Source: Streptomyces sp. NBC_00572
GTDB taxonomy: Bacteria; Actinomycetota; Actinomycetes; Streptomycetales; Streptomycetaceae
Direction of reading: 5' to 3'
DNA length: 64,000 bases
Assembly (NCBI RefSeq): GCF_026341815.1
Contig: NZ_JAPENX010000001.1
Span: 682,001 to 746,000 of the forward strand
Part shown: one piece after another, positions 43,013-48,716 of the stretch
Position numbering within the stretch: the stretch's first letter is position 1
How the letters are laid out: each line of letters opens with the position of its first letter
The notes under the pieces: generated by a model
Seen by the model: only the letters and a program-made list of their open reading frames with translations
Database searches by the model: none
What the model was told of the DNA's origin: nothing
Program-made: the position numbers and the translations under genes

Positions 43013-45565
43013 GTGATCCGAAACGACGCACTCGACCGTCTCCCCGTCCGCCATGCCGTCCCCGAGCTGCTGGCCGCGCTCGACCGGCGCGGTACGGCCG
43101 TGTTGTCCGCGCCTCCCGGCACCGGCAAGACGACGCTGGTGCCGCTCGCCCTCGCGGGTCTCATAGGGGACGGACCGCGGCGGCGGGTCCTGGTGGCCGA
43201 GCCGCGGCGGATGGCGGTCCGGGCGGCGGCCCGGCGGATGGCGTGGCTGCTCGGCGAGGAGGTCGGCTCCACGGTCGGCTTCTCGGTGCGCGGCGAGCGG
43301 CGGACCGGTCCCTCGACCCGGGTCGAGGTGGTGACCACGGGCATCCTGCTCCAGCGGCTCCAGCGCGACCAGGAGCTGGCGGGTGTGGACGTGGTCCTGC
43401 TCGACGAGTGCCACGAGCGGCATCTGGACGCCGACACGGCGATGGCGTTCCTCGTGGACGTGCGGGCCACCCTGCGGCCGGAGCTGAAGCTGATCGCCGC
43501 GTCGGCGACCAGCGACGCGGCGGCCTGGGCGGATCTCCTCACCGTCCTGGACGGCACGGGCCCGGCGCCGGTGGTGTGGAGCAAGGGCGAAGGGCACGGC
43601 TGCCGGGTCTCCTTCGCGGCGCCGCCCTCCGACATCCGGCCGGCGCACGGCACGTGGGTGGACCCGGCGCTGCTCCGGCACGTCGCCGCGACGGTGCGGC
43701 TCGCGATGGAGCGGCACGAGGGAGACGTCCTCTGTTTCCTTCCGGGTACGGGGGAGATCGCGCGGACGGCCGGGATGCTGGCCGACGTCGACGCGGAGGT
43801 GCTCCAGCTGCACGGGCGGGCCCCTGCGGCGGTGCAGGACGCGGTGCTGCGCGGTGCGGAGCCGGGCGGGCGACGCAGAGTGGTGCTCGCGACCTCGGTG
43901 GCGGAGTCCAGCCTGACGGTGCCGGGGGTGCGGATCGTCGTGGACTCGGGGCTCGCCCGTGAGCCGCGCATGGACCACGCCCGGGGTCTCGGCTCGCTGG
44001 CGACGGTGACGGTCTCAGAGGCGACGGCGACCCAGCGCCTGGGCCGGGCCGGCCGTGAGGCCTTCGGTTTCGTCTACCGCTGCTGGGCGGAGACGAGCGA
44101 CGGAGGCAGGCCGCGCTTCCCGTCCCCGGAGATCAAGGTCGCCGACCTGGCGGACTTCGCCCTGCGGGCCGCCTGCTGGGGCGACCCGACGGCGGAGGGG
44201 CTCGCGCTGCTCGACGCTCCGCCCGCCGGGGCGATGACGGCGGCCCGGTCGGTCCTCGACTCGATCGGGGCGGTGGACGCGGACGGCCGGGCCACCGACA
44301 GAGGGGTACGAATGTCCCGGCTGGGGCTCCATCCCCGGCTGGGCCGCGCCCTCCTCGACGGTGCGCCGGAGGTCGGGGTACGACGGGCCGCGGAGGTGGT
44401 GGCGCTGCTCAGCGAGGAGCCGCCGCGCGACTACGGGGACGATCTGGCGGCGGCCTGGCGCGCCGCCCGCCGGGGCGCCGACGGGTACGGCGCCCGCTGG
44501 AAGACGGAGGCGCGCCGACTGGAGCGGTCGGCGGCCGACGCGGTGGGCGGGGGCGCCGGGGCGGGGGCGGCCTCCGCGATCGGCGAGGACGCGGTGGCCG
44601 GTCTGGTGACGGCGCTCGCCTTCCCCGAGCGGGTGGCGAGGGCCCGGGAGCAGGGGGGCTATCTGATGGTGTCGGGCAGCGGGGCGCGGCTCGGCGAGGG
44701 GTCCGGGCTGCGGTCCACTCCGTGGCTGGCCGTGGCGGTGGCGGACCGTACGGCGCGGGACGCCACGGCGCGGGTGCGGCTGGCCGCGGTGGTGGACGAG
44801 GAGATGGCGCGGCGGGCCGCCGGGCATCTGCGGTCCGCGGGTGAGGAGGTCCGTTGGGAGGACGGGGACGTGGTCGCGCGCTCGGTGGACCGGCTCGGCG
44901 CGGTCGAGCTGACGGTCCGGCCGCTCGGGGCGAAGGCCGAGCCCTCGCTCGTACGGGAGGCGCTGCTCGACGGCCTGCGGCGTGAGGGGCTCGGGCTGCT
45001 GCGGTGGAGCCGGGAGGCCGGGGAGCTGCGCGAGCGGCTCGCCTTTCTGCACCGGGAGGTGGGGGAACCCTGGCCGGATGTGGCGGACGAGTCGCTCGTG
45101 GAGCGGGCCGGGGAGTGGCTGGAGCCGGAGCTGTCCCGGGCAGTGCGTCGCGCCGATCTGGGGCGGATCGACGCCGGTGACGCCCTGCGGCGGCTGCTGC
45201 CGTGGGCGTCGGGCGAGGCGGGCCGGCTGGGAGAGCTGGCGCCCGAGCGGATCGAGGTGCCCAGCGGATCGCGGATCCGGGTCGAGTACGGGGGTGAGCG
45301 GCCGGTGCTCGCGGTGAAGCTCCAGGAGATGTTCGGTCTGGCCGAGACCCCTCGGGTGGCCGGTGTCCCGGTGCTCGTCCATCTCCTCTCGCCCGCCGGG
45401 CGGCCGGCGGCGGTGACCGCCGACCTGGCGTCGTTCTGGCGGGACGGCTACCGATCCGTGCGGGCGGAGCTGAGGGGGAGGTACCCGAAGCACCCGTGGC
45501 CCGAGGACCCGTCGGCGGCGGAGCCGACCCGGTTCACGAGCGCGCGGCTCAGACGGGAGGGGTGA
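43013..45565 (+). CDS. hrpB: ATP-dependent helicase HrpB
   Basis: An 850-residue DEAH-family RNA helicase from GTG 43013. Walker A APPGTGKT is at 33-40, motif Ia EPRRMAVRAAARRMA follows, the motif II box is DECH (131-134), motif III is SATSD, motif V is LATSVAESSLTVPGVRIVVDSGL (in parts) and motif VI is QRLGRAGRE. The HrpB-specific C-terminal domain includes the conserved FPERVARAREQGGYLMVSGSG region and ends with PAAVTADLASFW..YPKHPWPEDP. The role in bacteria is poorly defined; loss affects surface traits in some species. It starts 25 bp past the methyltransferase terminator. Confidence 0.95.
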   Translation: MIRNDALDRLPVRHAVPELLAALDRRGTAVLSAPPGTGKTTLVPLALAGLIGDGPRRRVLVAEPRRMAVRAAARRMAWLLGEEVGSTVGFSVRGERRTGPSTRVEVVTTGILLQRLQRDQELAGVDVVLLDECHERHLDADTAMAFLVDVRATLRPELKLIAASATSDAAAWADLLTVLDGTGPAPVVWSKGEGHGCRVSFAAPPSDIRPAHGTWVDPALLRHVAATVRLAMERHEGDVLCFLPGTGEIARTAGMLADVDAEVLQLHGRAPAAVQDAVLRGAEPGGRRRVVLATSVAESSLTVPGVRIVVDSGLAREPRMDHARGLGSLATVTVSEATATQRLGRAGREAFGFVYRCWAETSDGGRPRFPSPEIKVADLADFALRAACWGDPTAEGLALLDAPPAGAMTAARSVLDSIGAVDADGRATDRGVRMSRLGLHPRLGRALLDGAPEVGVRRAAEVVALLSEEPPRDYGDDLAAAWRAARRGADGYGARWKTEARRLERSAADAVGGGAGAGAASAIGEDAVAGLVTALAFPERVARAREQGGYLMVSGSGARLGEGSGLRSTPWLAVAVADRTARDATARVRLAAVVDEEMARRAAGHLRSAGEEVRWEDGDVVARSVDRLGAVELTVRPLGAKAEPSLVREALLDGLRREGLGLLRWSREAGELRERLAFLHREVGEPWPDVADESLVERAGEWLEPELSRAVRRADLGRIDAGDALRRLLPWASGEAGRLGELAPERIEVPSGSRIRVEYGGERPVLAVKLQEMFGLAETPRVAGVPVLVHLLSPAGRPAAVTADLASFWRDGYRSVRAELRGRYPKHPWPEDPSAAEPTRFTSARLRREG

Positions 45566-46532
45566 CCGGGGCCGTGGCGTGGGCCGGCGCCGGGCGCCGG
45601 GAGCGGGCCTCCAGCCAGAGGGCGAGGGCGAGAAGGAGCAGTGCCAGGAAGGTGAGGCTCCAGGGGAGGTAGGAGACGAGCAGGAGGATCGTGAAGCGGT
45701 TGGAGGAGACCATCTCGCCGACGCTCTTGATGTAGTCCTCGCGCATCTTCACGTGCCCCTCGAAGACGGTGAGGGTGTCGCGGCCCATCAGCGCCTTGGC
45801 GTTGCGGAGCTCCTCCTTGTGGATCTCCTCGCCGTTGACGGGGGCGCCGGTGACCGGCTCGATCCAGAACATCCGCTTGGTGGTGTACCAGCGGGTGAGG
45901 CCGGAGTCGGCGAGGATCTTCGGGGTGATGCCCTTGACCGGCATGGCCTTGGGCATGGGGACCTTGGTCCAGGGGATGGTCTGCTCGAAGTAGTAGACCT
46001 CCGTGCCCCGGAAGGTGCGGGTGCCCTTGTAGTGGATGGGGGCCGAGGTGCGGGTCTGGGCGTCGAAGTACTGGTAGTCCCGCTTCTCGGTGAGGAAGGG
46101 CCACTTGAACTCGATGCCCTCGCGCCGGACCGGGTCGCCGTCGACGGATTCGCCGGTGGCGTTGACGGGGTCCTGGGTGTGGGCGTCGAAGATGTACCGC
46201 TCGGGGACCTGGGAGACCATCTTGCCGTCGGGGCCCGTGACATAGGCGAGGGCGTCCCAGACGACGACGTCGCGCCCGGCGTCGCGTTCGATCCGCCGCG
46301 ACTCCTCCACATTGCCCTTGAGGGTCTGGATGATCGTGATCTTGTCGACCTTCTCCGCCTGGAGCGTGGAGTAGTTGAGCAGGGTCGCGGGCTTCGCCTC
46401 CAGGACGGTCTCCTGGTACTGGTTCGGCGGGATCTTCGCCAGGCGGGGGAAGGCGTACCAGCGCAGGGTCGGGGCCATCGCGGCGCAGAAGACGGCGAGG
46501 GCGAGGAGGACGAGGCCGGCTCGGCGGCGCAC
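45549..46532 (-). CDS. DUF3068 membrane protein
   Basis: A 327-residue protein. GTG 46532 (VRRRAGLVLLALAVFCAAMAP) has GGGGAG upstream. It has an N-terminal membrane helix (about 5-20), a long extracytoplasmic beta-rich domain and a C-terminal helix (about 285-310) with a short basic tail. DUF3068 is a PorA-like family seen in mycolate and non-mycolate actinobacteria; in streptomycetes it has no known function. The last 17 bp overlap the end of hrpB on the other strand. A 46-residue gene lies 11 bp upstream, so the two form one unit. Confidence 0.85.
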   Translation of the reverse strand: MRRRAGLVLLALAVFCAAMAPTLRWYAFPRLAKIPPNQYQETVLEAKPATLLNYSTLQAEKVDKITIIQTLKGNVEESRRIERDAGRDVVVWDALAYVTGPDGKMVSQVPERYIFDAHTQDPVNATGESVDGDPVRREGIEFKWPFLTEKRDYQYFDAQTRTSAPIHYKGTRTFRGTEVYYFEQTIPWTKVPMPKAMPVKGITPKILADSGLTRWYTTKRMFWIEPVTGAPVNGEEIHKEELRNAKALMGRDTLTVFEGHVKMREDYIKSVGEMVSSNRFTILLLVSYLPWSLTFLALLLLALALWLEARSRRPAPAHATAPVTPPV

Positions 46533-46543
46533 GGTCGTCTCCC

Positions 46544-46684
46544 CTACTTCTTGGGGCCGGGATCGGCGGTCAGCAGTGGCTTGGGCGAGGTGGGTCCGTC
46601 GGGCGGCAGATCGACCACGGAGACGAGGAGGACGAAGAGGAGGACTGGGGCGAGTCCGATGGCGGCGGCGACGAGGGCGCGCAT
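46544..46684 (-). CDS. 46-residue membrane peptide upstream of DUF3068 gene (SPW_0924-like)
   Basis: ATG 46684, stop TAG 46544. A perfect GGGAGG lies 6 nt before the ATG. The peptide starts MRALVAAAIGLAPVLLFVLL (one membrane helix) and ends with DGPTSPKPLLTADPGPKK. The TSPKPLLT motif is what I recall from the small Streptomyces SPW_0924 family. It precedes the DUF3068 gene by 11 bp on the same strand. Such a short gene is easily missed by gene callers. Confidence 0.8.
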   Translation of the reverse strand: MRALVAAAIGLAPVLLFVLLVSVVDLPPDGPTSPKPLLTADPGPKK

Positions 46685-46823
46685 GGTCGGCCTCCCGGGG
46701 TGTGATCTGATAGGTCGTCAGGGCGGGGGCACCGTAGCAACGCGGCCGCGAGATGAGAACACGTTGCACCGGGACACCGTCGGACCGTCGTGTCACCGGA
46801 CGGTCGCGACCGGGGAACGCGAA

Positions 46824-46859
46824 GCGCCGCCCCTCCGCCCGGTGGGGCGGAGGAACGGC
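46824..46859 (-). terminator. Terminator after the lytic transglycosylase gene
   Basis: CCTCCGCCC (46832-46840) pairs with GGGCGGAGG (46845-46853), extended by an outer GCGCCG/CGGCGC pair. It lies about 37 bp past the stop of the minus-strand gene. Confidence 0.65.
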
Positions 46860-46895
46860 GCGAGGGGAACGCGGGCCGCGCGGGCGGCGGGTGCG

Positions 46896-48716
46896 TCAGG
46901 CCGAGGGCGAGGGGGAGGCCTCGGGCGAGCCGGTGCCGGAGGGCGTCGGCTCCGGGGTCGGAGTCGGGGTCGGCTCCGGGGTCGGGGTGGGTGCGGTGAC
47001 CGTCAGCTCGATCTCCGTCTTCCCACCGCCGGGCGCGGTCAGGCGCAGCACGAACTCGCCGGCCTTGTCGCCCGCGAAGAGGTCCTTGAGGGAGATCAGG
47101 CCGTTGGCGTCGGTCTTCAGGACGAGCGTACGGACGTTGCCCGCCGCGCTCTTGAAGTACGGGCCCTCGGCGCTCTCCTCGGTGTCCGTCGCGGAGGCGA
47201 CGATCACGGCGGTGACGAGCACACCGGGGGCGAGCGCGCCCTTGTCGGTGGCCTTCACCTGCGCGGGCTGGGTGAAGGCGGTGCCGGTGGTGGCCGACAG
47301 GGGGTCACCGGCGACTCGGGCGAGGGTGTCCGCCCGGCGTTCGGTCACGGTCGCCGTGAACGCCGCCGCCTTCGTGCTGTTGCCCACGACGGTGGCCTTG
47401 ACCGTGAACGGCCCGGTCTTCTCGCCCGCCCGCAGCGCGGGGGCGGCGGCGAGGCCGGCCGATCCGGTGGTGACGGTGGCGGTCGTCGCGCCGCCGGAGA
47501 AGCGGGTGTCGGTGGTGCCGGTGATCTCGAAGCGGATGCTCACCCCGGTGACCGGCGTGCCCGAGGCGTCGAGGGCCGCGACCGTCACCGCCTTGGCGAA
47601 GGCGCTCTCGGTGGTCGCGGTCAGTTCTCCGGTGGAGACGGTCGCGAGTCGCGCGACCTTGACGGCCGGCGGGACGATCGGCGGCTTCGTCGGCGGAGTG
47701 ACCGGGGGCTTGGTCGGCGTGACCGGCTTCGTCGGAGACGGGGTGACCTCCGAGGGCCCGCCCGGCTTCGTCGGAGAGGGCTTCGGGGCGCCCGGCTCGG
47801 ACGGCTTCGGAGCGGGGGGCGTCGGGGAGGGCGAGAGCGGCGGGGTGGGACGGTGGCGGTTGCCCTGCCCCCGGTCGTCGCTGCGGTCGACCGGCAGCAC
47901 TCCCGTGCCGTCCGGGACCTGGTGGGTGCCGCGCTGGTAGTACGTGAACCAGGACAGGACCGTGTTCAGGTACTCCGTCGAGCGGTTGTAGCTGAGGATC
48001 GCCCGGTCGAGGTCGGCCTTGAGCGCGAGGTTGCGGTCGTTGGCGCAGAGGTAGAGACCGGCGGCCTGCGCGGCGTCGTAGATGTTGTTCGGGTCCTTCT
48101 TCCCGTCGCTGTTCGCGTCCTGGCCCCAGGTGGCCCAGGTGGACGGGATGAACTGCATCGGGCCGACGGCACGGTCGTGCTTGGTGTCGTCGTCGTACGC
48201 GCCTCGATCGGTGTCGGCGATGAGGGCGAACCCGTTGCCGTCGAGGGCGGGGCCGAGGATCGGCTTGAGCGTCGTGCCGTTGGCGTCGACCCGGCCGCCG
48301 CTCGCCTGTCCGGACTCGACCTTGCCGATCCCGGCGAGCAGCTGCCAGGGCAGGTTGCAGCCGGGGGCGGTCGAACGGATCGACTGCTCGGCGCGCTTGT
48401 AGGCGGAGAGCACGGACGCGGGTATGCCGGCCTCGGCCGGCCCGGTGATGACCGGCAGGTTGGTGGCGGCCCCCGGCTTGTTCGGCGTGGCCAGCGGGGG
48501 CAGTGCCGTGTAGTACGGCGAGTCGCCGGTGGCGGAGCCGTCGCCGGACGGCGGCGCGGTGTCCCCGGCGCCGATGGTCCGGTCACCGCCGGCGTTGTCG
48601 GCGGGCGGCGTGGCCATCTCCGGCGCCTGCGAGGCGGCGAGCGCAGCGACCGCCGCAGCCACCACCGCACCGCTGGTGGCCCCCTTGCGCAGCCTGCGGC
48701 TCAAGTGCGCTGACAT
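46896..48716 (-). CDS. Secreted lytic transglycosylase with Pro/Thr linker and Ig-like repeats
   Basis: A 606-residue exported protein from ATG 48716 behind GAAGGGA. Signal peptide in residues 1-30. The transglycosylase domain (about 95-275) has the catalytic Glu134 in GIGKVESGQASG and the structural motifs GPMQFIPSTWATWG and NIYDAAQAAGLYLC. This is the MltB/SLT_2-like layout that cleaves peptidoglycan between MurNAc and GlcNAc to form 1,6-anhydro ends. A Pro/Thr/Lys wall-spanning linker (about 295-375) leads to two Ig-like beta domains (about 376-575, each beginning with a VSTGELTAT or ARVAGDPLSAT type strand) and a Thr/Pro/Glu tail. It is probably a cell-wall remodelling enzyme of growth or sporulation. 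Confidence 0.9.
   Translation of the reverse strand: MSAHLSRRLRKGATSGAVVAAAVAALAASQAPEMATPPADNAGGDRTIGAGDTAPPSGDGSATGDSPYYTALPPLATPNKPGAATNLPVITGPAEAGIPASVLSAYKRAEQSIRSTAPGCNLPWQLLAGIGKVESGQASGGRVDANGTTLKPILGPALDGNGFALIADTDRGAYDDDTKHDRAVGPMQFIPSTWATWGQDANSDGKKDPNNIYDAAQAAGLYLCANDRNLALKADLDRAILSYNRSTEYLNTVLSWFTYYQRGTHQVPDGTGVLPVDRSDDRGQGNRHRPTPPLSPSPTPPAPKPSEPGAPKPSPTKPGGPSEVTPSPTKPVTPTKPPVTPPTKPPIVPPAVKVARLATVSTGELTATTESAFAKAVTVAALDASGTPVTGVSIRFEITGTTDTRFSGGATTATVTTGSAGLAAAPALRAGEKTGPFTVKATVVGNSTKAAAFTATVTERRADTLARVAGDPLSATTGTAFTQPAQVKATDKGALAPGVLVTAVIVASATDTEESAEGPYFKSAAGNVRTLVLKTDANGLISLKDLFAGDKAGEFVLRLTAPGGGKTEIELTVTAPTPTPEPTPTPTPEPTPSGTGSPEASPSPSA

Follow-up and report, generated by a model that had tools for sequence, protein, structure and literature searches.

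In the 64,000-nucleotide stretch of Streptomyces sp. NBC_00572 analysed here (contig NZ_JAPENX010000001.1, positions 682,001 to 746,000; hereafter the window), a gene for a 46-amino-acid, single-pass membrane peptide of the SPW_0924 family (46544..46684, minus strand) stands directly before a gene for a 327-amino-acid DUF3068/PorA (PF11271) protein related to PgfA and LmcA (45549..46532, minus strand). In each of the 131 genomes of our genus sample in which both were found, the peptide gene immediately precedes PgfA. With modest confidence, and judging from sequence, we favor the reading that the peptide is translated and acts as a single-pass accessory membrane subunit dedicated to PgfA.

The peptide gene and its pairing with PgfA

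The peptide gene begins with an ATG at 46684 and ends with a TAG at 46546-46544, and six bases separate the ATG from a GGGAGG ribosome-binding site (46691..46696, minus strand). Its 46 codons encode MRALVAAAIGLAPVLLFVLLVSVVDLPPDGPTSPKPLLTADPGPKK, with a hydrophobic helix at about residues 4-25 and a conserved tail, TSPKPLLTADPGPKK. The product scores 75.2 bits against the NCBIfam profile NF033490 (SPW_0924), more than twice the cut-off of 33 (E 2.9e-21), in an alignment that spans residues 1-45 of the peptide and positions 1-44 of the 44 in the profile. The first-pass annotation had taken the GGGAGG, the ATG, the single helix and the TSPKPLLT tail as marks of a real small gene located 11 base pairs (bp) before the DUF3068 gene. 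Eleven bases do separate the TAG from the GTG start codon at 46532, and the gene is borne out by the NF033490 match, by the presence of the peptide in 132 of 199 genomes, and by constraint over 94 distinct peptide-PgfA pairs. The description of the peptide as unlisted does not hold, since NCBIfam already contains SPW_0924, the family name that the annotation itself had guessed and proposed to search, and for this reason the gene call as such is ordinary. The entry is typed as a hypothetical equivalog and, as displayed, gives neither partner nor function, and the peptide belongs to a known family without a stated function. Searches of one literature library found nothing on SPW_0924, on DUF2613 (considered below), or on “PorA family protein” with Streptomyces, and among the matches listed for pgfA with Streptomyces, none recognizably concerns the window PgfA. 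It is the pair with PgfA that is more than ordinary.

The PgfA gene is preceded by its own GGGAG ribosome-binding site (46539..46543, minus strand), which lies within the 11-bp gap. Its product scores 283.9 bits against PF11271 (PorA; cut-off 29.5) and 325.6 bits against the NCBIfam PgfA profile NF053601 (cut-off 160), and the only relative of solved structure found by sequence was LmcA of M. smegmatis (7n3v/7shw).

To evaluate the pairing, we sampled 199 genomes of the genus and 121 of the family. Tallies from profile searches score only part of the candidates, and absences rest on the loci that were read, where they were read. Of the 199 genomes in the genus sample, 132 gave a peptide match above the cut-off and 148 contain a PorA-family protein. 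Both were present in 131 and neither in 50; G003 has the peptide without PorA, and 17 genomes have PorA without the peptide (Fisher p 4e-31, a guide only, as related species are treated as independent). Adjacency in the 131 genomes was established by coordinates in 121, one of which (G144) has an internal deletion in PgfA, and by reading the loci in 10. The first-pass annotation had proposed conservation of the pair as a check and named a frame not conserved in related species as grounds for refutation; both the pair and the frame are conserved.

Two of the 17 PorA-only genomes are not assessable, with a run of N upstream of the gene in G041 and a contig edge in G071; 14 have proteins that fall, by tree or by identity, outside a clade with 100/100 support, and one, in G131, is a broken copy that was not placed. 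The unrooted tree comprised 60 proteins, among them the proteins of one pair in three, taken at regular intervals from the 94, together with 19 PorA-only ones. The single supported branch took in every one of the 32 pair-associated PgfA proteins sampled, along with 5 diverged proteins and 2 of the 19 PorA-only ones, these two being those with the run of N and the contig edge upstream. The broken G131 copy was left out, as was L133, which shares 93% identity with a protein that falls outside the pair-associated branch. Since both PorA-only cases inside the branch are unjudgeable and the others that were placed fall outside it, every assessable PgfA of the pair-associated clade in the genus sample has the peptide, as far as the sequences tell. 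The PorA-family gene in G131 (L143, L148; G131:C17), apparently of another type, is split in two, has one in-frame TGA, and is apparently a pseudogene.

In the family sample, PorA matches were found in 59 of 121 genomes and the peptide in 49. Eight of the ten PorA-positive genomes without a peptide match have other PgfA types, judged by eye from their N-termini, and no upstream peptide, while the remaining two are G503, which has a C-terminal PgfA fragment, and G533, with a weak match below the cut-off. A widened peptide profile reached 10 of the 17 genera in this sample, and PorA 11. When loci of other genera were read, the peptide was present in 14 of 14 in one set and 13 of 20 in another, and the seven without it have other PgfA types by their N-termini.

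We also examined the site in genomes that lack the pair. The gene for the helicase HrpB was looked for in 24 such genomes and 18 loci were read, the rest having a cut, broken or missing hrpB match. In these 18, neither gene was present at the site after hrpB, with no match better than E 0.6. The flanking transglycosylase gene was present near hrpB in 17 of the 18, about 1.8 kilobases (kb) away in two, and 4 of the 18 genomes carry another PgfA type elsewhere. In the window, hrpB (plus strand, end 45565) and PgfA (minus strand, end 45549) converge and share 17 bp at their 3′ ends (45549-45565), and the gene upstream of the pair (46896-48716, minus strand) encodes a 606-amino-acid protein that combines a transglycosylase SLT_2 domain with a C-terminal part rich in threonine and proline.

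Constraint and expression signals

Over the 94 pairs, the ratio of nonsynonymous to synonymous polymorphism (pN/pS, from uncorrected counts) was 0.46 for the whole peptide, 0.53 for the helix, 0.65 for the linker, and 0.17 for the tail, TSPKPLLTTVP, which at eleven columns is the most constrained part of the peptide. The tail motif occurs in loosened form in 93 of the 94 and as exact TSPKPLLT in 64, and no member contains cysteine. Residues just before the stop codon vary (HP, GPKK, APGK), with HP in 50 of 94. The 94 pairs exclude L178, L180 and L192, whose peptides begin with MRAF and fall outside the open reading frame (ORF) pattern, although all three carry the usual tail. The pattern also missed L116, whose peptide and PgfA start are visible at the locus.

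A signal-like N-terminus, and an A-x-G before the tail in many members, would suit a secreted peptide or signal, with the helix cleaved off as a signal peptide and a tail of about 20 residues set free. We regard this as very improbable, because the window type (SVVDLPPDG) and several members from other genera, inspected by eye, do not have small residues at a consistent place.

Upstream of the peptide gene is a promoter-like -10 element, TACGGT (46731..46736, minus strand), called from its consensus match and conservation and found as TAC[GC]GT in all 94 relatives. It ends 29-100 nucleotides (nt; median 47) before the peptide start codon. A -35-like element, TTCTCA (46754..46759, minus strand), lies 17 bp before the -10 in the window, within a conserved GTTCTCATCTC block that is exact upstream of 65 of the 94 peptides, and a loosened -35 pattern occurs 14-19 nt before the -10 in 90 of 94. 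Shine-Dalgarno-like sites precede 92 of the 94 peptides and 81 of the 94 PgfA genes, compared with a background of 13% in PgfA coding sequence. These signals fit a two-gene transcript that would begin with the peptide. The interpretation of a small membrane-protein gene tied to DUF3068, stripped of the word unlisted, is upheld by conservation, adjacency, joint presence or absence, and the promoter-like element. The promoter-like block at 46731-46770 reads AACGTGTTCTCATCTCG, and some other genera have a near-palindrome, GTAGAACCTGTTCTCA, which we take to resemble operators of TetR regulators of lipid metabolism.

The position of the peptide, as the first frame after a promoter-like element, together with its short length, its conservation and its place directly upstream of a membrane-protein gene, raised the possibility of a cis-acting leader, whose translation or stalling sets the translation of PgfA and whose product has no function of its own. 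The peptides also often end in proline, which speaks for such a leader. However, a leader peptide should be conserved up to its stop codon and spaced at a fixed distance, whereas here the stop-proximal residues vary, the conserved motif ends earlier, and the gap to PgfA ranges from 8 to 107 nt and covers all three frames. This variable gap and the separate ribosome-binding sites argue against a fixed leader mechanism and fit the two-gene transcript. In addition, no Rfam family matches 45400-47000 at E up to 0.1, and outside the family most related peptides are separated from PgfA by kilobases. On this evidence a leader is distinctly unlikely.

Diverged relatives, DUF2613 and AftD

In two genera (g115, g118) the peptides are conserved in position (e.g., MRAFAAVVLGIALAVGAAFAVAAFAVADPGTVHKPLQVTSPPARP) and fall below the SPW_0924 cut-off or give no match. 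Seven of nine diverged loci that were read keep the order transglycosylase-peptide-PgfA, another (g117) has peptide-PgfA-hrpB, and one, with another PgfA type, is without a peptide. For three of four diverged or other-genus peptides scanned, DUF2613 (PF11021) was the best Pfam match, at 17.5-18.8 bits and below the cut-off of 22.1; the fourth gave no match, and one peptide from family f17 scored 21.3. The window peptide itself had no PF11021 match at E up to 10.

To look outside the family, a widened SPW profile was built without sequences from outside it. It gave 8 matches below 1e-4. Seven of these are followed on the same strand by a PorA gene 5.6-13.7 kb downstream; the unlinked one was in G301, where PorA was not found. 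The outside-family peptides that were read resemble MIRVLAALAVGAVLAVGASVAVVNVAAPTPEPPNRPLYNYGDK or MTPLIGVLVAAVVGIAIAVGSSVAVVQVAAQKPDPVTKPIIVYGSN. PF11021 gave 29 matches below 1e-4 in 25 genomes, four of which carry two, and for 25 of the 29 a PorA gene follows within 20 kb on the same strand. The unlinked matches were in G454 (separate contigs), G367 (two tandem copies on a separate contig) and G228 (opposite strand). In family f4, taken as mycobacterial, DUF2613 was upstream of PgfA in 21 of the 24 genomes where DUF2613 was found. Between 1e-4 and 1e-2, 9 of 59 PF11021 matches were linked to a PorA gene, among the PorA matches listed, and such weak matches outside the family are probably mostly chance. 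Relatives in other families were found by profile, mostly kilobases upstream of PgfA. In two places a peptide was seen against PgfA itself. At L300 (G299:C100), in the mycobacterial family, a second DUF2613 gene (54.4 bits to PF11021) abuts a second PgfA gene, and the 5 kb read contains no AftD; at L261 and L309 (G452:C10), in family f38, a peptide, MSGILGAIIAAVVGALLAFGGTSLLVNSQTAVPAPVDKPYIVYGNK, ends 13 nt before the PgfA gene. The latter scores 12.6 bits to DUF2613, and was noticed through its position, being a weak profile match (E 0.03).

We compared profiles of the SPW peptides (SPW), the diverged peptides (DIV), those of family f17 (F17), those of other families (OTH, which includes the G452 peptide) and DUF2613, the last a set whose depth is overstated, because some genes are represented by several alternative starts. 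Probabilities were high for SPW-DIV (94.5%), SPW-F17 (88.4%), DIV-F17 (97.1%), F17-OTH (96.6%) and F17-DUF2613 (91.7%), while 15 scrambled SPW controls reached at most 28% and five PgfA-helix controls stayed below 1%. The direct SPW-DUF2613 comparison gave 28%, equal to the best scrambled control. Because the intermediates score high and the direct comparison is no better than this control, the link between SPW_0924 and DUF2613 is transitive, as the profiles stand, and the window peptide is not assigned to DUF2613. Members of the two families are small, with one N-terminal helix and a short C-terminal tail, and are found near PgfA genes; they differ in that mycobacterial DUF2613 members abut AftD.

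Several results weigh against a peptide dedicated to PgfA and against extending that role to DUF2613. Besides the low direct score, SPW-OTH reached 6%, DIV-DUF2613 66% and DIV-OTH 60%, and the scrambled controls cover SPW only, with none for the DIV-F17 step. The tail letters differ by branch (TSPKPLLTTVP versus PLYNYGDR or VEYGSR). PF11021 also has a match in the control genome of Haloferax volcanii, which gave none for PorA, and a search of 480 nt upstream of 20 PgfA loci of other families, for a ribosome-binding site with a hydrophobic ORF, found no such peptide immediately upstream. (One ORF, at L157, passed this filter and was judged by eye to belong to a longer frame.) In mycobacteria the DUF2613 gene is directly upstream of AftD in 80 of 80 loci kept, and PgfA is about 6-19 kb from the peptide, being seen further along in 34 of the 80 within the flank covered. 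With DUF2613 directly before AftD and PgfA this far off, AftD could be the partner of DUF2613 in mycobacteria.

This arrangement, and an AftD-like gene in 24 of 28 other-family loci tested, would be explained if the peptide served another envelope protein or process, such as an AftD-like transferase, and stayed with PgfA through shared regulation or history. The clusters that were read run from the peptide, in some through a glycosyltransferase or methyltransferase gene, to AftD and then PgfA; PgfA is the element common to the contexts read, and AftD is the closer neighbor in many. However, in three lineages the peptide is placed next to PgfA and the sequence read contains no AftD, namely the window (64 kb), G299:C100 (5 kb) and G452 (13 kb), whole Streptomyces genomes not having been searched for AftD. 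Within the genus, the two genes occur jointly at one site or are jointly missing from it. We consider service to another partner unlikely.

A broader proposal is that SPW_0924 and DUF2613 form one ancient superfamily, an accessory subunit of PgfA/LmcA across Actinomycetes, in which the window family has kept the bare pair and Rv0236A, which we take to be a member of DUF2613, is the mycobacterial form. We put this forward tentatively, with rather more doubt than belief. The length of Rv0236A, given as 57 amino acids in one study (PMC4219376), is in line with that membership; another study describes it as a small secreted protein, and reports upregulation of a locus merging Rv0236A with Rv0236c (PMC11534329).

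A proposed role beside PgfA

KdpF, CydX and AcrZ are one-helix accessory subunits, shorter than 60 residues, of larger membrane proteins, and are often encoded in the same operon. The window peptide resembles them in its single helix and its length of fewer than 60 residues, and by analogy it may be a subunit too. As expected of an accessory subunit, it is kept and lost with its partner gene, with two exceptions. In G003, PgfA is gone and the tail of the peptide has decayed from TSPKPLLTTVP to TSPSPRPTTAP, a single case that favors a role for the tail with PgfA; the same peptide still scores 48.7 bits, over the SPW_0924 cut-off, which points the other way. The peptide of G144 is intact and its PgfA carries an internal deletion, a finding that is neutral or mildly unfavorable to the accessory-subunit reading. 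At L397 (G503:C298), hrpB and the transglycosylase gene flank a C-terminal PgfA fragment and no peptide was found, a further apparent joint loss.

As to the presumed partner, published reports state that MSMEG_0317 is PgfA, a periplasmic protein that binds trehalose monomycolate and works with MmpL3 in M. smegmatis, is essential in mycobacteria and is required for polar envelope growth (PMC9678360), and that the crystal structure of LmcA has two enclosed cavities, with one entrance predicted near the membrane (PMC8972800). The window neighbor scores as PgfA (MSMEG_0317, Rv0227c), and models of a close relative, L020, predict a CD36-like fold: an AlphaFold model of this relative, rather than of the window protein, aligned to LmcA with Z 19.3 (220 residues aligned, root mean square deviation 2.9), to CD36 with Z 10.0, and to LIMP-2 with Z 10.1. 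A small partner is not mentioned in the sections available of the two reports, and the word Streptomyces is absent from their main texts (PMC9678360; PMC8972800).

Under the accessory-subunit reading, the peptide would be co-transcribed and translated with PgfA and inserted with its N-terminus inside and its C-terminus outside, its helix lying beside the two anchor helices of PgfA. The tail could then sit near the membrane-side entrance of an extracytoplasmic, CD36-like lipid cavity, where it might stabilize PgfA or help lipid to enter or leave. The peptide would thereby represent the streptomycete branch of a wider actinobacterial superfamily that includes DUF2613. An AlphaFold model of the fused peptide-PgfA of L020 (stop codon read as serine; 32 of 33 in-frame paired loci) gave a mean predicted local distance difference test score (pLDDT) of 80.7 and a predicted template modeling score of 0.71. 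Its tail, with pLDDT near 41, did not dock, and on that account the model lends no support to tail docking, another point on the unfavorable side; for the accessory-subunit reading as a whole the model is neutral, neither supporting nor excluding it. The suggestion of the first-pass annotation that size and position point to a helper or assembly peptide is compatible with the sequence data, and is the reading that we prefer.

This is a concrete, testable proposal, built on the strict partnership, the constraint on the tail and the transitive link with the DUF2613 peptides near mycobacterial PgfA, and in it the window peptide may be an overlooked helper of PgfA. If it is true, a near-obligate tiny partner in the genetically easy Streptomyces would provide a direct handle on how lipid is loaded into and unloaded from CD36-like proteins, and a first function would be assigned to two families of unknown function, SPW_0924 and DUF2613.

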